A DNA stretch of 21,693 nucleotides, from the IMG/VR virus record IMGVR_UViG_3300021356_000194, positions 1 to 21,693 of that record. One strand, written 5' to 3'. Shown here piece by piece: positions 3,423 to 15,345 of this stretch. The notes beneath the pieces are model-generated. The model searched no databases. It was given only the letters and a program-made list of their open reading frames with translations, and was not told where the DNA came from. This DNA is from a virus. The first letter of the stretch is position 1. Every line of letters starts with the position of its first letter. The position numbers and the translations under genes are program-made.

Positions 3423-3833
3423 TTAAAGTGTTTTTATCATTTCTGATGTGTACGAATCCCCTTCACTATACCCCAATTCTTTATACGATTCAATCAACCC
3501 CCTGTGCTTTATAAGTGCATAGCTATACTTACACCCTTTGCTTTTTCCTGTTTCAGTAAGATTTTGAAGCAAAGTCAAAATACACTGTTGACGAAAAGGT
3601 TTCTTTCTAAAAGTCTTGCTTGAAATTATCCAATCAACCCAACAGATTTTTGAGTTTGTCAAATACAAGAATCCTGCGCAAACAGGTTCATCCTCATACA
3701 TACACATAAACCCACCCTTTCCGTCAAAAGGCAAAGAGTCTTTAGGTGGAGCTGCAAAATTCCAATCACTCCACCAACCCAAAAGGATGTTTTCATAATC
3801 AGACTCTTGCAGAACTCTAAGAGATATTGCCAT
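3423..3833 (-). CDS. GNAT-family acetyltransferase-like protein, 136 aa
   Basis: A short protein with a GNAT-like order of elements. It has an N-terminal strand and helix (about 4-20), a central pair of strands (GGFMCMYEDEPVCAGFLYL, about 40-58), then another strand (about 60-72, WVDWIIS). A helix spans about 78-97 (FRQQCILTLLQNL), and the C-terminal half, YSYALIKHRGLIESYKELGY, has the Y..LGF-like ending common in GNAT enzymes. The usual acetyl-CoA loop (Q/R-x-x-G-x-G/A) is not clearly present (I see KKPFRQQ instead), so catalysis is uncertain. I recall small GNAT-like proteins embedded in the structural operons of marine phages. The gene sits between a tail protein and internal virion genes, with gaps of 9 and 2 bp, so it is expressed as a late gene. 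It could modify a virion or host protein, or be a catalytically dead structural or chaperone-like relative. Confidence 0.55.
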   Translation of the reverse strand: MAISLRVLQESDYENILLGWWSDWNFAAPPKDSLPFDGKGGFMCMYEDEPVCAGFLYLTNSKICWVDWIISSKTFRKKPFRQQCILTLLQNLTETGKSKGCKYSYALIKHRGLIESYKELGYSEGDSYTSEMIKTL

Positions 3834-3837
3834 ACTG

Positions 3838-3845
3838 CAAATTTA
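3838..3845 (-). promoter_or_regulatory. Possible Bacteroidota-type -7 box before the GNAT-like gene
   Basis: The minus strand reads TAAATTTG followed by CA, an exact match to the TAnnTTTG -7 consensus of Bacteroidota. Its first three bases are the stop codon of the 279-residue protein. The ATG follows only four bases later, and no TTG is seen at the expected -33 distance. A promoter here would therefore give a leaderless or very short leader. Treat it as a weak candidate. Confidence 0.2.
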
Positions 3846-4682
3846 TGGAAATGACTTCATAACCTCTGTATCCACAGTGAACAGCTCAATTGGAGTTGTA
3901 AGGTTATTTGTCAATTCAAAAACGCAGTAATGACCAAGCACTCCATTTGACTCTGCAATAGAGTTTTTGACAAACATGAAATACCTGTCATTTGGAGGTG
4001 TAGTCGGCTGAGTCCCGTTGCTCGTATCAACGTCTATGTAATTGTTTCCGTTTGCAATGTCCCTCACAACGGCAGTAACAACACCCGCAAACACAGGAGT
4101 TATTGAAGATGCTCCGGTATCTCCATAGTATATGAAGTCGCCAACGCTAAGCGAAGTAGGTATTGCAATCGGAGGGCCGCTTCCTAATGGGTTAAAATAA
4201 TTGATTCGAGTGTTTGTCAAGTTGTTGCTAAAGAAAGCTGCCCCAATACCCTGAAAAGACCTTAAAGGAAACTGACTGCTGTCTATAGGATTTTGAAACG
4301 GACTTTGTTGGTCTTGGTCGTTTCTTACAAAAGCATAGTAAGACGCCTCTTTCAAGTCAAAATATTCTGCGTCTATAAATCCTGTTGCTTGAAGGTCTGT
4401 TTCAAGCTTCGCGTCCCAAGGCGCATCTCCTTCAAGGTTCAAAGTTTTAAAAAGCTTGTTTTCTAAAGGAGAAGAGTTGATTACGCTTTTTAAAGTAGAT
4501 GGATAGCTTGTTCCGTAAAAGTTGTTTCTACTTACCTCGTTTGAATTGTGTATAAAAAGATTCCCGCCCTTAAAGGTGTACAGGAACTGATTCATACCCT
4601 TAATAAATTCAGGGTGATAAGAATAAAAAGAAGGCCACCCTTGGCTTCCTTTACTGAATGTAAGCGTGTAGTTAGTAGGCAT
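3843..4682 (-). CDS. Tail structural protein (stabilization-protein C-terminal family), 279 aa
   Basis: Residues 14-60 carry a string of features I recall from the C-terminal part of crAss-like/marine podovirus stabilization and muzzle-type proteins. These are QGWPSFYSYHPE, a FKGGNLFIHN element and RNNFYGTSY (about 52-60), followed by FKTLNLEG (78-85). The second half has a small beta module (about 178-240: LSVGDFIYYG, a GVV strand, YIDVDT). It ends in LGHYCVFELTNN and ELFTVDTEV, again matching the remembered family ending (GYYA...F.N.S...AELF.V.SE). The family role is in the tail or neck apparatus below the portal. The gene is coupled to the upstream 605-residue gene by a TGATG overlap. In relatives I recall this segment following the stabilization-protein body inside one ORF, so here it may be a split-off part. 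Confidence 0.65.
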   Translation of the reverse strand: MPTNYTLTFSKGSQGWPSFYSYHPEFIKGMNQFLYTFKGGNLFIHNSNEVSRNNFYGTSYPSTLKSVINSSPLENKLFKTLNLEGDAPWDAKLETDLQATGFIDAEYFDLKEASYYAFVRNDQDQQSPFQNPIDSSQFPLRSFQGIGAAFFSNNLTNTRINYFNPLGSGPPIAIPTSLSVGDFIYYGDTGASSITPVFAGVVTAVVRDIANGNNYIDVDTSNGTQPTTPPNDRYFMFVKNSIAESNGVLGHYCVFELTNNLTTPIELFTVDTEVMKSFP

Positions 4683-6499
4683 CAGGAAAAACAGTTACAA
4701 AGCAAAACTTCAGAAGTAAGCCCCGATTCGCGGAATGGTAAATTCAAACTATATGGTTTTGCACAAACAGTAACAGCTACAGGATTGCTAGAAGTTTCGG
4801 CAGCTCGAATAAATCCATTTCTAATTATACCGCTACAATCTCTAAATGTAAAATTGTAAGACAGGTTTGTGCTGTTTTCTATTTTGTATGTGATGCATTG
4901 GTCAGCACAAGTTTCATCTTCAACAACAGAAATTATGTAGTAATCTATCGGTTCGGTGGAAGTGCCTTCAATTACATAAGTACAATCTGAACCAAGCGAT
5001 GTGTCACTAGCTCTTACCAAAGTACCTGAAGGAAGAGCGGGTATGTTTGCGGGCGCACCCAAAACAACAGTTACCGTTGAGTCCCCACAAAGAGTGGCAA
5101 GATATTTTACAAAGCCATCGCAATCGCAATCAATCAATTCGTAGCTAATAAAAGAAGGAAGGGTAGAAGGGTCAAAACTCCTCAAGCAAACTTCATTTAC
5201 AGAGTTTCCAAAACAAAAAAGTTGTTGAGTAACTCCGCTGCAATCAGTGTATGATACATTAACTGATTGGTCTGAGCTATTGATAAACTTAACTAAAGCA
5301 CAAGTATCAGCACATTCTATTGTATTTGGGTCATCTGAAAAAGACCTCCACCCAATAGAATTTGAAGGACAATCACCCGGCAGTTCTTGGTCTAACCGAT
5401 AAATACAAGAATCTTCTAAAACTTCAATGTGAGAATTTCCGCTTGCGTTGTTAGGAACTCCCGACACGCATACAACAGCTTCATCAAAACATCTATATGC
5501 TTTCCAATTTGATGGCGCAGCTCCGCAAGGAAGAATATTTTGAACAATACCATTTGCATTTACCTGAATAACAACACTTTGGCCAACTCTATAAAATCCG
5601 TTCGCTAAAGGAGTTGCTGCATTTGCATCTGAAAAAACAAAATTATTTTTTGCAACCCCCGAACCCTGTCCTGTAAATCCGGCAAAATAATAGGTTTGGT
5701 CAACATCATCCGGATAAGTAACATTATTGCAAGCATCGGATTTAGTGTTTTGCTTTAAAGAAGAAGCAAAAGAAGGTAGTGTTGTTGGACACTCCATCGC
5801 AAGCGACCAATCGTCTGAATTGCAAAGAGCATAAACAGTGGCTTCTACATTTGAAACTTGAGCATTTGTTTTTGAAATCACCGTAATGCACTCTCCGGGT
5901 TCTGTATCTGTCCCTTGTATATTTCCTGTTGTAACCGTTTCAGTAGAAGTTCCCCCTAAAGAATTAAATGAACTTCCATCAAACAAAAAAGGAGAAAATT
6001 CCCAATTGTAACCCCCTATGTTGTCTATAAAACAATCAGCAAGGTTATTCTTCCCAACCCATGTTGCAGTTCCTCCCGTTCCTCCATTTAACTCACCTTC
6101 TAAAAAAGATGAAAAAATCCTGTAGTCTGTTCCATCATAAGAAATGTTTATCCCATTTGGAACATCATTAGGAAAAAAACGAATAATAATCGCTCCTAGC
6201 CCATCTTTGCTGTCAAAGTTTGTTATAAACTTCCTACCCACATTTGAAGATGGATTTGGGGGGTTAGGTATTGTGGTAGATGTTCCGGAGTTTGCTGTAA
6301 ATGAAATGTTAGAGCATTCAATGTTGCAGCTAGGACAAGATGAAGGCGGAGCTAAAACTTGTCCATCCCAATACCTAGCCATTGAGCCATCAGAATACCA
6401 TCCTGCTGCCGCATAAGTAGTAAGAAGCGCGTCGGTCCAAATGCCGGTGGCAGATGTAAAAGAATTTCCGTCTATGTATACTGTTGAAATTACCCCCAT
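4682..6499 (-). CDS. Cysteine-rich modular tail/adhesin-like protein, 605 aa
   Basis: A Ser/Thr/Gly/Asn-rich, beta-predicted protein with about 30 cysteines and no signal peptide, built of repeated modules. An N-type module at 5-58 has the pattern DG..F..ATG..TDA.LT...A.G.YS.G...RYW.G, then CPSC; a looser copy lies at about 255-325 (FSDANAATPLANGFYRVG, then PCG). Two tandem composite units follow at 332-460 and 466-603. Each begins with a Y..xC..D..V module and ends with a six-cysteine module C-x3-C-x19-C-x(17-23)-C-x(19-21)-C-x-C containing a [YF]xDCSG core. The same six-Cys module ends the upstream 1541-residue protein. Position and composition suggest a surface-exposed tail or receptor-binding component in which disulfides or metal could stabilise the modules; this is inference. 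The gene is in frame with the upstream ORF, whose TAA lies 9 bases before this ATG. It is coupled to the next gene by TGATG. Confidence 0.6.
   Translation of the reverse strand: MGVISTVYIDGNSFTSATGIWTDALLTTYAAAGWYSDGSMARYWDGQVLAPPSSCPSCNIECSNISFTANSGTSTTIPNPPNPSSNVGRKFITNFDSKDGLGAIIIRFFPNDVPNGINISYDGTDYRIFSSFLEGELNGGTGGTATWVGKNNLADCFIDNIGGYNWEFSPFLFDGSSFNSLGGTSTETVTTGNIQGTDTEPGECITVISKTNAQVSNVEATVYALCNSDDWSLAMECPTTLPSFASSLKQNTKSDACNNVTYPDDVDQTYYFAGFTGQGSGVAKNNFVFSDANAATPLANGFYRVGQSVVIQVNANGIVQNILPCGAAPSNWKAYRCFDEAVVCVSGVPNNASGNSHIEVLEDSCIYRLDQELPGDCPSNSIGWRSFSDDPNTIECADTCALVKFINSSDQSVNVSYTDCSGVTQQLFCFGNSVNEVCLRSFDPSTLPSFISYELIDCDCDGFVKYLATLCGDSTVTVVLGAPANIPALPSGTLVRASDTSLGSDCTYVIEGTSTEPIDYYIISVVEDETCADQCITYKIENSTNLSYNFTFRDCSGIIRNGFIRAAETSSNPVAVTVCAKPYSLNLPFRESGLTSEVLLCNCFS
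4691..5506 (-). repeat. Two tandem composite Cys-rich protein units
   Basis: Unit 1 is residues 332-460 (5120-5506) and unit 2 is residues 466-603 (4691-5104) of the 605-residue protein. The best-matching parts are ECADTCALVKFINS against TCADQCITYKIENS, YTDCSG against FRDCSG, and the closing CDC against CNC. The divergence implies an old duplication, with no DNA-level identity expected. Confidence 0.7.
6326..6487 (-). other. N-type module of the 605-residue protein (copy 1)
   Basis: Residues 5-58, with TDALLT, GWYSDG and RYWDGQVLAPPSSCPSC. A second looser copy lies at 5525-5737 (residues 255-325), with FSDANAATPL, GFYRVG and a closing PCG. I recall this module from Bacteroidota phage structural proteins, but I know no established function. 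Confidence 0.5.
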
Positions 6500-6508
6500 T
6501 TCATTTTT

Positions 6509-9500
6509 TTAAGGACTACAAGACCCACAGTTAGAAAATGCTATTTCCACATCATTAACAGAACCTCCGTTTGCACTAAACACCGTGGGCAATGTCCTTG
6601 AGCAAACATTAGTTCCGCTTACGACAGTATTCGTAAACAAAAGGCCTGTATCGCAGTCAGTAAATTGAACTCTAGCATCAACAATAGACCCGTCGTTGAA
6701 CGTAACAGAATACTGTGAACATTGCTCGTTGCAAAAACAAGTAACATCGCAACAAACATCTGCAACAGTATTTCCCAATGTTGAATCATAGCACAAATTT
6801 ATAGATGAAGAAGACCTTAAGTCCCAAACTAAATACAACTTGTCCTGAAGAGTTATGTTGGTAATGCTTATAGACCTTTCCGCCCCTCCAATCGGCAAAG
6901 ATTGAAAAGCAGCAAGCGAAAGCAATGAAGATATTCCCGCAGGAGTATTTGGATAATCTGTATTTGTTGCTAAATAGCCTATAGATGCCCCGGTAGGAAC
7001 GTCAAAACTATCCCCCGGAACTTTATTGGTATAAACTCTTAAAGTGCTTCCATCAAAAGGAATAAAAGAAGTTCCTTGAGGTCCCGCAATTGTATCATAC
7101 CTAGAGACCAATGGGTTTGTTCCTGTTTGAAAAACAATCCCATCACTTCTTCTTATCGAAATAAGATTGTTAGTCGGGTCTTCGTACTCGTACTCAATAT
7201 GAAGCGTTTCATTTGCGTCATCATTGTTCGTAACAACAACTTCAACAACATCCATTAAACTTCCATAAGGGCATCCAACCTCAAAAGATTGAAAAGTAAT
7301 TTCATCTCCATTGCTACTCCTATCAATAGTCACTCTTACAGAGGTAGCGCCAAAATTATTTATGTTGGTTGCATAGCCTGTGTCAGATGTTGATGATATT
7401 GTACGGACACCCGGAGTCCCCCCACCAAAATCAGTAGTAATAGTAGCTGTTCCTGTAAGGCTAAGTATTGTGTACGAAATATCAATTTGCTCACCTGTAT
7501 TTGTGAGCTGCACATCAAAAGACACAGATGGGTTGGCGTCGTTTACTTGAATGTTTTGCTGAGTAACTCCGCAAGAAACAGGTTCATTAGTAGATGTTAC
7601 CTCGTCTGTAGTTGACGACAAAACATATTCGCCCATGTACGGGTCGTATCCTCCTAACTTTTTAGTGTTGTAGCTATCAATAAACAAGTCCCGAAACCAA
7701 GAGCGCATACCTAATTCAGATATTACAGTTAGGCTTTCTGACTTGCCTACACCTTTCATCTGAATTACCGCACCCCTCTTAGAGTCAGTAAAGTATCTGC
7801 TATCCCCCCACTGAACATGACTTTCAGGGTTGAAGCTATTTCCATAATCTTCTATGCGAGCAATTTGAGTTCCTAACACTTCAGGAACTGATGTGATAGC
7901 GCCGCCCGCAGCAGCATCTGAAAGAAGGTTTTTACCTACAAGCACATACGATACCTTATCTTCCTGAAGAGTAAACACATCTGTTTCTCTGCCGTCAATA
8001 AGAGTAATTACACCGTATGACTCTTCTAATGTTTTAAAATTAAGAAGGCCAAGGTTAAACTCATTAAGCTTGTTGACATTCGACTCGTCATTATAAATGC
8101 CGCTGTATGTTATGTCTGCAAACCTGTGGGCCTGTTTAGAGTCTTCGCTACTAACACTTAAAGCCCTGTTGCCCAATTCAAAAAATGTTCCTGTTGCAGA
8201 ATCTCTCATTTTGTAAGACTCTACGCCATTTCCAAATGCATAGCAGTTGAAAAAATTAGGATAGCAAATAGCAGGTTGGCTTGCCGTTTGGTCTTGCGTT
8301 GGAGACAAATGAAAGCCATTGCTTATGTCAAACACATTTTCGTTTTCATAAAAAATGTCGGGATTGGTATCTTCAGGAAGAGTTTCAAAAACCAACACTC
8401 TGTCAGATTTAAAAATCTGAATGTTTGCATTGATGTTTGAGTTCCTATTCCTACAATTTATAAATCCCCTTATTCTCAAAAACTCAAGAGTTGAGCCCCC
8501 AAAACAAAACTCAATTAAGCTACGAGAACCTCCACTTCTTCTTGAATTGAAACTATTGTTTGGTTGAAAAAGAATGTTTGCACTTCCTCTTTTAATGTTT
8601 GCAGGGTCTGTAAAAACAGACTCTAGCTTTTCACCAATAAAAAAATCATAAAAACTGACATAATCTCTTGATGCAACAAATGTTTCGTCAATCAAATAAG
8701 TCTTTGCTTCACAACCTGTTCCGTTGTCCCTATTGATGTCTATGTAGATTTTAACTCTACTTCCCGTAGGAATAGGTATGTCTATAAAAGAACCCGGTTG
8801 ACTTGGGTCTTGCTCTTGAGTTCTTAAAGTCAAAAAAGAACTATCAGTTGCCCGGTATCGCACTTGGTCGCTACCCGAAATTTTTACAAAATTGTCTTCG
8901 GCATAGTTAAGGTCGATATTGTTTGGCTGCACTTTCATGTACAACCCGGCAGGCTCTACTCTATTATCATCTAAAAAATTAGGAGGTTGAGCTTCCTTAG
9001 CTAAAACAGTAATATACTCACAAGTATTTGTTGGCCCGGAATTATCTGCTTTGATTATGTATCTATCGCCAACTTCAACCTTTGCTCCGTTTTCCCCTTC
9101 CAATAAAATGTATCCTTCACCTGTTCTTTCATCTGTAAAATAAATGTGAGAGAATATGGTCAAGTAGTTTGCTTTATTTGCTCTTGCAACAAACTTGTAC
9201 TTGGTAGCCCAAGAAGGTGGTTTTTGAGATGTTGGAATTGTAATCTTCGCCTTGTTTACAAGTGGAGAGTTTCCGCAAGGCACATGAATGACGTTTGTAT
9301 CACTTACAAGAGGAGTAGAGCTTCTCCCATAATCATCCATGTATACAATGGCAAATTCATAATCCCTGTTACTGTGAAGACTAGCTGAACCTGCTGCTCC
9401 AATAAAAGAAGCCGCTCCGGTAATTACTCTAAAATATTCGTAAGCATACTCAGCAGAGTCAGAAAGGTCTTCCCACTTGACAGCAGGAAACTGAAATCTT

Positions 9501-11134
9501 AAAAGACCTGTACTTGGGACAGTTGCTAATATCGGCTCTCCTGTTCCGTTAATACCACTCCCCACTTTATTTAAAGAAGTGCCACCTACATAGTTAAGCT
9601 GATTAGGTAGCTGACAATTAAACTCATCAGTAAACGTAGTGCCCTGACAAGAATTTGGAACAGTCTGTATGTTTAAAGAAGTTCCAACTGCCTCTAAAAA
9701 ATTCTGTGATTGAAAAAGAAAATCTATTCCTTGAGGAAAGTCTTGATTGAGCTGATACGAAAAAGTAATGTTTATGTCAGGAGACTGCTGATTAGTAGTG
9801 GTTGGGTTATTGGCGTCAAAACTTTCATGCCTTAAAACCGCAGAAAATTCAAGCCTAGCTCCTGCAATAAGCTGAGACGGCTGTATGTTAGAAAAATCAA
9901 ACTCAACGACACTGTCTGAAATAGTTCTACTTGTGCCGCTAATATTGTAAATACCATTGTAAAAACTTCTTGCATCTATCTGCTCAAAATCAACCTCTTG
10001 AGTTTCTAGCTCTGCAAAATATCTAAACTGAACAGGATTGTCCGAAGAATCTTTTAAGTCATAACCTTCTACATAATTGCCGAACATGAGCCTGTTGCCC
10101 ATAAGGGTTTGCCCAAGAGCTTTAAGGGGAACATTGTCATACAGTCTAAGTATTTCAGACTCAGGTAAAATCGTAAATATTTTATCCTTGTCAAACCTAA
10201 ATGTGTAAGACGAGTTGTTCGGAACAGGGTCTGTGTCTTTGTTGAATTTTTTGATGACTTTAATAATGCCATTAGAAGCATCTTTGTACAGAAGCTCAAT
10301 ACTCCTGACAAGCTTGTTCCCTGTTTGAAATGTTATTTCAGCAGCATTAAAGTTGTTGGTCATCCCCTCATTCAAAAAACTTTCAATAGCAAAGTTGAAT
10401 GGTTCTATAGCGAATGCAGGTGATGTAAATGGAGATGTCGCTGAATACTGACCGTCAGCATATCTATACCTGTAAGCAAAACAAGCAAACCTCTCATCAA
10501 TAAAGTTGACTCCTTCAGGAACTTGAATCAAATCAACAGAAGGAGCTACAAGAGGCGGCTTTTTAATTACCCTAATATCCTCCTCTAATAAAGAGTAATC
10601 TTGAAATGTTGTAGAGTCAGGAAGCGGGTAGTCTCTGTTTACATTAATAACCCTTGGTTGATTAAAATTGTCTGTAAAAAACAATAGGCCATCAATAAGA
10701 TTGACGCCCAAAACCATTTGGTTTGACTGAAAGTTTAAAGTGCTTTTGTTGCTATCGTTTGGGTCAACGCAGCTAACAACATGATATGTAACTATCTTGC
10801 TTTCAGTATTGTATGATACTATTAGGTCGCAAATGTTATTTGGAGATTCATTGTTGCCCCCATCATGCACAAACCAATACATTGTCTCATTTGCTGAATC
10901 TGCAAAAGCTCCTACACAAGTTGCCTCAGAAGAAATTTGTTCTGAGTTTACAGGATTGATAAGGGTAGTTAGCTGAAAATTACCTTTTGTATTTTCAATA
11001 ACACCAATCTCAGATTCTTCAGTAGAACCCATCCTGACATTAAGAGCATCAATGTATTCTCCATCAGGCAAAAGTCTTTCATCGACGGATTTATTCATCC
11101 GCCCCTTAATAAAGTTCCTAGAAATGTTTGGCAT
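6509..11134 (-). CDS. Tail stabilization-type protein (crAss/P22-like), 1541 aa
   Basis: Residues 1-52 carry the family opening: NISRNFIKGRMNKSVDERLLPDGEY (signature parts at 5-27), DALNVRMGS and GVIENTKGN. A long beta-rich body follows, with propeller-like strands such as LLFFTDNFNQPRVIN (about 150-164), ACFAYRYRYADGQYSATSPF (217-236) and LGQTLMGNRLMFGNYVEGY (340-358). At about 1105-1174 come WGDSRYFTDSKRGAVIQM and GGYDPYMGEYVLSS, which I recall as the end of the propeller region. From 1185 onward the sequence changes to Ig-like, Thr/Ser-rich modules (1188-1288 and about 1290-1437). It then carries a WDLRSSSSINLCYDS element and closes with a six-Cys module (1468-1539). In crAss-like particles such proteins build the tail barrel/muzzle below the ring proteins. 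The start is fixed by TAATG coupling to the 302-residue gene. The Ig and Cys extension is probably surface exposed. Confidence 0.8.
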   Translation of the reverse strand: MPNISRNFIKGRMNKSVDERLLPDGEYIDALNVRMGSTEESEIGVIENTKGNFQLTTLINPVNSEQISSEATCVGAFADSANETMYWFVHDGGNNESPNNICDLIVSYNTESKIVTYHVVSCVDPNDSNKSTLNFQSNQMVLGVNLIDGLLFFTDNFNQPRVINVNRDYPLPDSTTFQDYSLLEEDIRVIKKPPLVAPSVDLIQVPEGVNFIDERFACFAYRYRYADGQYSATSPFTSPAFAIEPFNFAIESFLNEGMTNNFNAAEITFQTGNKLVRSIELLYKDASNGIIKVIKKFNKDTDPVPNNSSYTFRFDKDKIFTILPESEILRLYDNVPLKALGQTLMGNRLMFGNYVEGYDLKDSSDNPVQFRYFAELETQEVDFEQIDARSFYNGIYNISGTSRTISDSVVEFDFSNIQPSQLIAGARLEFSAVLRHESFDANNPTTTNQQSPDINITFSYQLNQDFPQGIDFLFQSQNFLEAVGTSLNIQTVPNSCQGTTFTDEFNCQLPNQLNYVGGTSLNKVGSGINGTGEPILATVPSTGLLRFQFPAVKWEDLSDSAEYAYEYFRVITGAASFIGAAGSASLHSNRDYEFAIVYMDDYGRSSTPLVSDTNVIHVPCGNSPLVNKAKITIPTSQKPPSWATKYKFVARANKANYLTIFSHIYFTDERTGEGYILLEGENGAKVEVGDRYIIKADNSGPTNTCEYITVLAKEAQPPNFLDDNRVEPAGLYMKVQPNNIDLNYAEDNFVKISGSDQVRYRATDSSFLTLRTQEQDPSQPGSFIDIPIPTGSRVKIYIDINRDNGTGCEAKTYLIDETFVASRDYVSFYDFFIGEKLESVFTDPANIKRGSANILFQPNNSFNSRRSGGSRSLIEFCFGGSTLEFLRIRGFINCRNRNSNINANIQIFKSDRVLVFETLPEDTNPDIFYENENVFDISNGFHLSPTQDQTASQPAICYPNFFNCYAFGNGVESYKMRDSATGTFFELGNRALSVSSEDSKQAHRFADITYSGIYNDESNVNKLNEFNLGLLNFKTLEESYGVITLIDGRETDVFTLQEDKVSYVLVGKNLLSDAAAGGAITSVPEVLGTQIARIEDYGNSFNPESHVQWGDSRYFTDSKRGAVIQMKGVGKSESLTVISELGMRSWFRDLFIDSYNTKKLGGYDPYMGEYVLSSTTDEVTSTNEPVSCGVTQQNIQVNDANPSVSFDVQLTNTGEQIDISYTILSLTGTATITTDFGGGTPGVRTISSTSDTGYATNINNFGATSVRVTIDRSSNGDEITFQSFEVGCPYGSLMDVVEVVVTNNDDANETLHIEYEYEDPTNNLISIRRSDGIVFQTGTNPLVSRYDTIAGPQGTSFIPFDGSTLRVYTNKVPGDSFDVPTGASIGYLATNTDYPNTPAGISSLLSLAAFQSLPIGGAERSISITNITLQDKLYLVWDLRSSSSINLCYDSTLGNTVADVCCDVTCFCNEQCSQYSVTFNDGSIVDARVQFTDCDTGLLFTNTVVSGTNVCSRTLPTVFSANGGSVNDVEIAFSNCGSCSP
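6518..6733 (-). other. Six-cysteine module at the C-terminus of the stabilization protein
   Basis: Residues 1468-1539 have cysteines at 1468, 1472, 1494, 1511, 1536 and 1539 and an FTDCD core. This is the same layout as the two modules in the neighbouring 605-residue protein (Cys 396, 400, 420, 438, 458, 460 and 531, 535, 555, 579, 601, 603). Confidence 0.65.
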
Positions 11135-13866: not shown

Positions 13867-15345
13867 TTACGCTCCGTAGCGGAACAAGAAGAAGTTGTTA
13901 GCTCCCATGACGCAAACAGCACGCTCGGTCAAGAAGTTAACCTTCATCTCATCGACATCGGAAGTTGCAGCACCTCCGGCGCTACCTGTCATCCATGTCT
14001 TGTAACGACGGTCCTCAGTCTCAGAAGCACGATAACGAACGTGCAGGAAAGGACGCTTAGCGTTCTTACCAAGAACTTGGTCGTACACAGTTGTAGAACC
14101 TGCGGGAACGAGCATACCTGTAATGGTCTGTGCAGAAGTTGCACCTGCCCATCCATCGCTCAAACCTCCACGCATAGTGGGGTCGTTCAGGTACTTCCAA
14201 TCAGACTTGTAAAAGTCATAACCACGACGGAATCCTGAGAACCCAAGGTTCAGAGCCATCTGCTCGTCATTGTCAAACAGACCGTAAGAAGTACCTCCGG
14301 CTCCGTAAGAGTTCTGAGCAGCAAGCATATCATCCATAGCGAATGAAGCCTCACGATTCAAGAAGAGTACGTTCTCTTCGATAGAACCCTGCTTGTCCAA
14401 GCGAGAAATGATGTCATCAAAGTCAGAAAGAACAGTTGGGTATCCACCGCCAAAGACGTTACCACGATTGTTTACCTCGTAGAAAATACCCTTGGTTCCC
14501 TTATTACCTACACCCGCAGCTGTAACGGCAGCAGCTCCTGAATCTGTTTCAGCAGGAACAGCCTCAAGCATTGAAGTTTCCATGTAGTCCTCAAAGCGGA
14601 GACGAGTCTCATGCTCAGACTTCATGTACCACAAGTAGCCGGTAGCGCCATTCTCGGTAGTCACTTCAATCCAACCAATCTGAGCCATGTCAGAGCCTGT
14701 AACACGATAGGCATCCTTCATGATGATAGGGCTGTTGTCGAAGATTTCATCGTTGGCTTCCAAGCTTTCAACCATTCCGGCAGAACCTTTCTTAAACTCA
14801 GAGCCATAGATGAATACCGTCAGAGTTTCACTGTCTCCAAAAGTTTGACCGCCCGCTTCATAGTATGCTACATCAAATTCGCCAGCGCCATAGTCAACAG
14901 CAGTAACAATACCTTTGTTAGCACCGGTCCCTGTGTTAGATGTAATCATAACAGTCTGACCTACTCGAATAGCAATGCCACCTGTGTTCAAAGGATTAGC
15001 AGAGCCATCTGTAGCAGCAGGATTGGGGTCAAGAGCATCGTTAACTGTGATGGTGGCAGTATCAGCAGCAGTAGTTGATGCTTGGTCTGAAACACAGTTG
15101 GTGTACTTGATGTGCAAACGACCTTGCTCTGCCCACTTGATTTGGTCAGAAGTAGTTGGCATTTCAGCTCCTACCATGCGAAGGAAAGAAGCTACGGTAC
15201 GATTACCATAACGCTCAAACTCCTTTTCATAAGTATCAGGCAGATACTGATTCAAGAAATTGAAGTCGGTAATGTAGTTTGTTGGCAACGCAATGCGCTG
15301 CGAAGAGGGCTGTAGATTGTAGCCCGGAGTTGATAGTACAGACAT
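13867..15345 (-). CDS. Major capsid protein (HK97-fold, crAss-like type), 492 aa
   Basis: The identification rests on position after portal and scaffold, the size, and a recalled family N-terminus: NYITDFNFLNQYLPDTYEK (23-41), then RMVGAEMPTTSDQIKWAEQGRLHIKY (56-81). A region at about 85-185 (Thr/Ala/Gly-rich, with GGIAIRVGQTVMITSN and GIVTAVDY) looks like a beta insertion domain. After it comes KGSAGMVESLEANDEIFDNS (186-205) and an HK97-like body with ENVLFLNREAS (324-334). The end is VCVMGANNFFLFRYGA. Codon choice differs from the neighbouring genes (Arg CGT, Lys AAG, Tyr TAC, Leu CTG), as expected for the most abundant virion protein. The ATG is preceded by a run of A residues (ACTAAAAAATAAAAA) and no Shine-Dalgarno. 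A strong terminator follows the stop. Confidence 0.88.
   Translation of the reverse strand: MSVLSTPGYNLQPSSQRIALPTNYITDFNFLNQYLPDTYEKEFERYGNRTVASFLRMVGAEMPTTSDQIKWAEQGRLHIKYTNCVSDQASTTAADTATITVNDALDPNPAATDGSANPLNTGGIAIRVGQTVMITSNTGTGANKGIVTAVDYGAGEFDVAYYEAGGQTFGDSETLTVFIYGSEFKKGSAGMVESLEANDEIFDNSPIIMKDAYRVTGSDMAQIGWIEVTTENGATGYLWYMKSEHETRLRFEDYMETSMLEAVPAETDSGAAAVTAAGVGNKGTKGIFYEVNNRGNVFGGGYPTVLSDFDDIISRLDKQGSIEENVLFLNREASFAMDDMLAAQNSYGAGGTSYGLFDNDEQMALNLGFSGFRRGYDFYKSDWKYLNDPTMRGGLSDGWAGATSAQTITGMLVPAGSTTVYDQVLGKNAKRPFLHVRYRASETEDRRYKTWMTGSAGGAATSDVDEMKVNFLTERAVCVMGANNFFLFRYGA

Follow-up and report, generated by a model that had tools for sequence, protein, structure and literature searches.

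Why would two neighboring tail genes of a phage encode the same small cysteine-rich module? The question arises from a viral DNA of 21,693 nucleotides (IMG/VR record IMGVR_UViG_3300021356_000194; the whole stretch that was analyzed is called the window here), in which an earlier note, made from the letters alone, had described such a module at the end of a protein of 1541 amino acids (aa) and again in the adjacent 605-aa protein. Here, we report that these modules form a homologous family and that, by alignment, they occupy a break in a split homologue of the crassvirus muzzle, the gatekeeper of the tail tip. We propose that they probably serve in host-surface binding.

Results

The cysteine-rich modules are homologous

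Iterated profiles resolved four kinds of modules: N (about 55-75 aa), MID (about 150 aa), M, and C. All window features given below lie on the minus strand. The 1541-aa protein terminates in one C module (6515..6739), with cysteines at residues 1468, 1472, 1494, 1511, 1536, and 1539. The 605-aa protein is encoded by what we call the insert gene (4682..6499), which has homologues at the same locus in relatives, and it reads N-MID-N-M-C-M-C. Its first N module (residues 1-58; 6326..6499) is followed by the all-beta MID domain, which was delimited by profiles and predicted structure (about 91-239; 5783..6229), and by a second N module (251-325; 5525..5749). There follow an M module with two extra cysteines, 344 and 377 (331-395; 5315..5509), a C module (396-460; 5120..5314), a second M module, supported by profiles and by an AlphaFold2 (AF2) model (465-530; 4910..5107), and a second C module, also modeled (531-603; 4691..4909). 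The earlier note had placed the cysteines exactly, and its alternation of C with a second module holds. Its six-cysteine description fits the C module, whereas the M module has two cysteines of its own. The N-type modules that it placed ahead of the composite units are indeed one family, with the MID domain, which it lacked, between them.

To score the C modules, we used leave-out profiles made from C modules of other phages only, with the window and the related loci L006 and L005 excluded. These profiles recovered all three window copies, at 30.7 bits for the muzzle-tail copy and 42.7 and 32.6 bits for the first and second copies in the 605-aa protein, and none of 1000 shuffles that kept the cysteine positions reached the score of a real C module. 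A profile from simple muzzle tails alone detected both 605-aa copies, and a profile from inserts alone detected the muzzle copy. When a profile was made from the two 605-aa copies with no relatives added, the muzzle copy was not recovered, which indicates that the link between the genes required intermediates. The two M-C composite units of the 605-aa protein matched one another at 20.4 bits, a score that none of 2000 shuffles attained. Taken together, we conclude that the C modules of the two proteins form a real homologous family, one that extends beyond the spacing of cysteines.

The array occupies a break in a crassvirus-type muzzle

The 1541-aa protein comprises a core (residues 1-1170; 7625..11134) that runs to a GGYDPY..EY hinge and matches phrog_14478 (E 3.5e-207), then a stalk (residues 1171-1462; 6749..7624) with a terminal CC motif after which the modules attach. 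Spacing supports this division, as the CC motif lies 270-294 residues past the GGYDPY hinge in nearly all array-bearing relatives. Beyond the insert gene, a gene for 279 aa (3843..4682) contains the Pfam domain crAss_MUZ_C (E 2.8e-18; 66.6 bits against a cut-off of 27). The family profile of the 1541-aa protein aligned over residues 1027-1188 with residues 1049-1204 of gp44, the muzzle of phage crAss001 (E 6.2e-6, probability 85), the remainder of the chain being too diverged for alignment, and the family profile of the 279-aa protein aligned over residues 5-95 with gp44 1200-1289 (E 1.8e-6). The two matched stretches of gp44 therefore abut at residue ~1200. In the Flavobacterium elemo phage L004, the two parts are fused into a single chain of 1493 aa, and in phi18:3 and several others the genes are split yet adjacent, which suggests, together with the abutting gp44 matches, that the muzzle chain is interrupted at one place and that the array grows there. 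In most relatives found, a module-bearing gene sits between the two muzzle genes. The break point is C-terminal to gp44 region 318-1021, which holds the IG2 and crass domains.

Based on these alignments, the 1541-aa protein is the N-terminal part of a crassvirus-type muzzle (muzzle-N) and the 279-aa gene encodes its C-terminal domain (MUZ_C). The standard muzzle is one continuous chain, and the window has a 1541-aa gene and a 279-aa gene with the 605-aa gene between them, so we class the system as a split homologue of the muzzle rather than a standard one. The two adjacent tail genes of the earlier note are thus adjacent, as described, and are refined to muzzle-N and an insert gene that MUZ_C follows. 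Homologues of the split muzzle parts in phi18:3 are annotated as virion proteins from tandem mass spectrometry. The insert protein is presumably a virion component as well, and the array would be exposed at the tip. Crassvirus muzzles form a hexamer at the tail tip, with a propeller and the crass fold, traits that the window protein may share. In crassviruses, the tip of the muzzle is thought to make contact with the cell surface and to open the gate (PMC10172136).

The insert start (6499-6511) lies in the muzzle reading frame, three codons past the muzzle stop. A readthrough fusion of muzzle and insert was considered and rejected, since the insert frame relative to the muzzle is spread 50/48/30 across relatives and hence is not conserved.

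Modules are gained, lost, and exchanged among relatives

Related loci were selected by the N-module pattern. At least 468 IMG/VR relatives encode N modules, and 175 loci yielded 234 N, 88 MID, 84 M, and 109 C distinct modules. Muzzle tails in these loci terminate in nothing, C, C-C, N, N-N, or 1, 2, 3, 4, or 6 M-C units; one odd tail has four M-C units and an extra C, and that of L003 ends in MID. Most inserts read N-MID-N, some of them with one or two M-C units in addition. All 143 of the module-bearing open reading frames other than muzzles are on contigs with muzzle-N, and an M-C model run against the 52-kb record behind L103 matched the muzzle/insert locus only.

On a muzzle-core tree of 126 rows, a quick tree with some long branches, tail type has changed at least 25 times, and there are at least 10 changes in the number of M-C copies. 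One change can be read directly from L127 and L128, whose cores are 93% identical and whose inserts share 91% identity as far as the second N module. Past that point, L127 has two extra M-C units (254 aa). The stop codon of L128 is followed by CATTTAAAAGTTGTACTTGCTAAAAAACAG, which corresponds to the terminal bases of the final C module plus its flanking sequence, both as found in L127 (CATTTGAAAGTTGTACTTGCTAAAAAACAG), and this remnant indicates that two M-C units were deleted and left a scar. These observations bear out the earlier proposal that modules are added, lost, and moved between adjacent genes. The array also diverges faster than the core, as identity averaged over pairs of related muzzles, which are not independent of one another, was below that of the core by 25 points in the tail, 17 in the insert, and 16 in the stalk, while MUZ_C, with a difference of 0.9 points, does not diverge faster.

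The slot can hold other domains. In L061, a relative of the L117 locus that carries six M-C units, the muzzle tail (14558-15283) has a Laminin_G_3 domain, which is concanavalin A-like and of lectin type, in place of the M-C units (E 2.9e-13).

Two further muzzle tails, L016:14408-15403 and L069:5164-5922, are long and lack cysteine modules, which suggests that the socket may accept further domain types; the L069 tail matches a virion structural PHROG and shows a weak, below-cut-off resemblance to an arabinofuranosidase catalytic domain. Separately, the insert N module of three loci (L002:24830-25213, L055:13487-13903, and L177:8166-8654) precedes 130-160 aa of unrelated sequence that matches no family, so that N looks like an adaptor for differing cargo.

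The cysteines come and go in pairs

All six C-module cysteines are 98-100% conserved in the 109 distinct C modules, a check in related phages that the earlier note had asked of its module, and the M-module cysteines are invariant in 84 M modules. In N modules, alignment columns 70 and 111 hold both cysteines in 34 sequences and neither in 192, with no exceptions; each column changes seven times on the tree, always jointly with the other, and the independent pairs on supported branches number four, too small a sample for significance. Losses elsewhere are also joint: C2 and C3 in L006 and, as read by eye, in L162; C4 and C6 in the fourth unit of L117; and MID C156 and C226 in L017 and L039. One C module (L141) is ambiguous as to cysteine pairing. 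In the AF2 model, C2 (74) faces C3 (94) by the register of a hairpin-like strand pair (75-81/87-92), as judged from strand limits. The bonds predicted for the C module would thus be C2-C3, C4-C6, and, as the two cysteines left over, C1-C5.

Gain and loss of cysteines two at a time is what disulfides would produce, unlike metal sites with four ligands, and the array modules probably contain intramodule disulfides. The alternative that the cysteines ligate zinc or an iron-sulfur cluster, making the modules metal-stapled beta domains, draws on the CxxxC and CxC spacings, which are known from metal sites, and on the reducing cytoplasm at assembly, which disfavors disulfide formation. We regard it as very improbable, as a four-ligand site would vanish whole and as disulfides occur in the crAss001 tail barrel and hubs (PMC10172136). 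Of the two options in the earlier note, disulfide or metal stabilization, paired gain and loss thus favors the former. Its remark that cysteine-rich repeats are unusual in tails assembled in the cytoplasm needs qualification, since disulfides are present in crAss001, in the tail barrel, the hubs, and proteins of the portal vertex (PMC10172136), and the Agrobacterium phage Milano has an extensive disulfide network in its sheath and baseplate (PMC10811340).

The modules are predicted all-beta domains of no named family

AF2 predicted the M-C unit (462-605) with a mean predicted local distance difference test (pLDDT) of 91.6 and a predicted template modeling score (pTM) of 0.80, with five strands in M and five in C, and N-MID-N (1-330) with pLDDT 85.3 and pTM 0.77. 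Both models are compact and all-beta, and a compact beta fold was part of what the earlier note had proposed to look for. For the M-C unit, Foldseek found nothing in the PDB below 0.001. The best structural row for M was the PriA N-terminal domain (Z 7.5), which was set aside because the score is within the range expected without true kin. MID resembles CUB, GOLD, collagen-binding, and carbohydrate-binding module sandwiches at Z 5-8 only, and weak matches of this kind to solved structures carry no proof of function.

Sequence searches of Pfam, PHROGs, and the PDB with the modules gave nothing above threshold, although one C module weakly matched a PHROG "tail fiber protein" family (0.0012), and the insert protein has no Pfam or PHROG family above threshold. 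Neither the 14 C modules searched at E<=1 nor the 23 insert proteins searched at E<=0.1 matched the BACON domain (PF13004), and no immunoglobulin (Ig)-family Pfam match to the modules, whose models are all-beta, exceeded the cut-off. Unnamed relatives were found in BFVD for N-MID-N (E down to 8e-30) and M-C (1e-4), which indicates that the family is present in databases and has neither a name nor a role there.

The array is best read as a probable host-surface adhesin

We propose that the modules constitute a modular host-surface adhesin array built into the tail-tip muzzle, a reading to which we assign a probability of roughly 60%. Behind the muzzle core would come the CC-ended stalk and at least one small beta module that bears cysteines (N, M, C), with the insert gene supplying more modules plus MID and the third gene supplying the muzzle C-terminal domain. 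If the tip holds six muzzle copies, as homology to gp44 predicts, the array would be multivalent there. Intramodule disulfides would form once the virion has left the reducing cytoplasm and would stabilize, outside the cell, short modules with small hydrophobic cores, and module gain, loss, and swapping would tune binding to variable host surface glycans or proteins. We favor this reading because the array is on the muzzle, turns over fast, and diverges fast, and because Laminin_G_3 fills the same slot in L061.

Several points weigh against the adhesin proposal. Relaxed constraint could explain the fast divergence of the array, and the loci were drawn by an N-module pattern. The modules have no clear solved-fold match, with none above Z 8 for M-C. 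The cysteine pairings come from few independent events, for which sign tests cannot reach 0.05. That the insert protein belongs to no known family speaks for the insert gene being a non-virion hitchhiker or an accessory gene that occupies a hot spot where the muzzle is split, encoding, for example, a secreted or decoy protein. That explanation seems extremely improbable, because insert and muzzle tail share modules and the insert gene lies within a run of structural genes and is kept in most array-bearing relatives.

The main rival to an adhesin is a mechanical spacer or stabilizer, with receptor specificity elsewhere, as in tail fibers. Such an array might make the tip longer or stiffer and so bring the gate through a capsule to the outer membrane, or its disulfides might hold the parts of the split muzzle together. 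A ruler-like variation in copy number (0-4 and 6) and the constant position of the CC motif would suit this role, and BACON domains, the closest precedent, serve as linkers in bacteria (PMC6949934). A pure spacer would have no need of a slot that accepts varied module types, even a lectin-type domain, and the array sequence diverges faster than the core, so we consider a spacer unlikely. A further, speculative and rather improbable, idea is that MUZ_C completes the muzzle-N propeller in trans and that the array at the junction, bonded by disulfides, serves as a latch, sensitive to redox state or to binding, that opens the gate when engaged at the cell surface; if true, host recognition and gate opening would be coupled via one evolvable socket.

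Gene order and relatives of the window

The large genes of the window, all on the minus strand, encode TerL, portal, a 355-aa protein, a major capsid-like protein, a 247-aa protein, two virion structural proteins, the 1541-, 605-, 279-, and 136-aa proteins, and then more. From their position and PHROG match, the two virion structural genes ahead of the 1541-aa gene resemble ring/tail proteins. Among records with a name, those closest to the window are from Cellulophaga phages (phi18:3, Pachyviridae), Flavobacterium elemo phages, and an uncultured phage from spring water, MW202828, in which the counterpart of the 1541-aa protein shows 42% identity. The 605-aa protein has no close relative in phage records except for one 67-residue match. 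Phage phi13:2, of the same Cellulophaga group as phi18:3, was used as a crassvirus outgroup by Bayfield et al. (PMC10172136). The window comes from a relative of the crassviruses whose host, judged by these named relatives, is probably a flavobacterium-like bacterium. A search of a species-genome collection found no muzzle relatives, so no host can be assigned via prophages.

Cysteine makes up 4.6% of the 605-aa protein, 3.7% of the 136-aa protein, 1.6% of the 1541-aa protein, and 0-0.9% of the remaining window proteins. The 136-aa gene (3423-3833), directly after the MUZ_C gene, is kept in 17 related loci among those examined. Its MW202828 counterpart is annotated as an N-terminal acetyltransferase subunit, which would put an acetyltransferase-like gene beside the tail tip.

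Discussion

The likeness to crAss001 gp44 lies in gene position after the ring proteins, in the crAss_MUZ_C domain, and in both segment alignments; however, gp44 is one chain of 1371 aa, whereas the window has three genes, with a stalk and a cysteine-module array at the break. Crassvirus muzzles vary in length through insertions in the crass and IG2 regions (PMC10172136), which is a different position from that of the array. The crAss-like phages are already known to carry beta domains in tandem on their tail proteins, as BACON repeats (PMC6949934), and Ig-like arrays are known as well. The BACON repeats of crAss-like gut phages are tandem small beta domains that are tail-associated and proposed to bind the host (PMC6949934). 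M-C units likewise occur as tandem copies (0-4 or 6) in a tail-associated protein, but in a different gene, as a two-domain composite in the muzzle that has no BACON match, and the text of the BACON paper mentions no disulfides (PMC6949934).

The Ig-like domains that accrete onto structural proteins of phages (Fraser et al., cited in PMC6949934) are swappable beta domains at the surface, for which weak and variable adhesion is proposed. The window modules are similar in being swappable, putatively surface-exposed beta domains with a proposed adhesive role, and they differ in their conserved cysteine pairs, their fixed attachment after the CC motif, and their lack of an Ig-family match above the cut-off. 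Like the window, Milano is a case of disulfides in virion proteins of a tailed phage assembled in the cytoplasm, although the bonds in the window are predicted, and the Milano bonds join sheath and baseplate subunits and need reduction for contraction (PMC10811340), whereas the window pairs appear internal to small repeated modules. Among the open papers searched, we came across no description of split muzzles, arrays at the muzzle socket, or these cysteine modules.

The muzzle is the most distal conserved tail protein, and its receptor-contacting part in crassviruses is only presumed. Our findings point to the muzzle socket as a possible seat of variable, surface-facing parts in the crassvirus neighborhood. 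Since the socket modules are definable, at roughly 65 residues each and with countable turnover, contact between muzzle and host may be addressed with single recombinant modules. The array further offers a clean natural example of how paired cysteines evolve in proteins that are assembled in a reducing cytoplasm.

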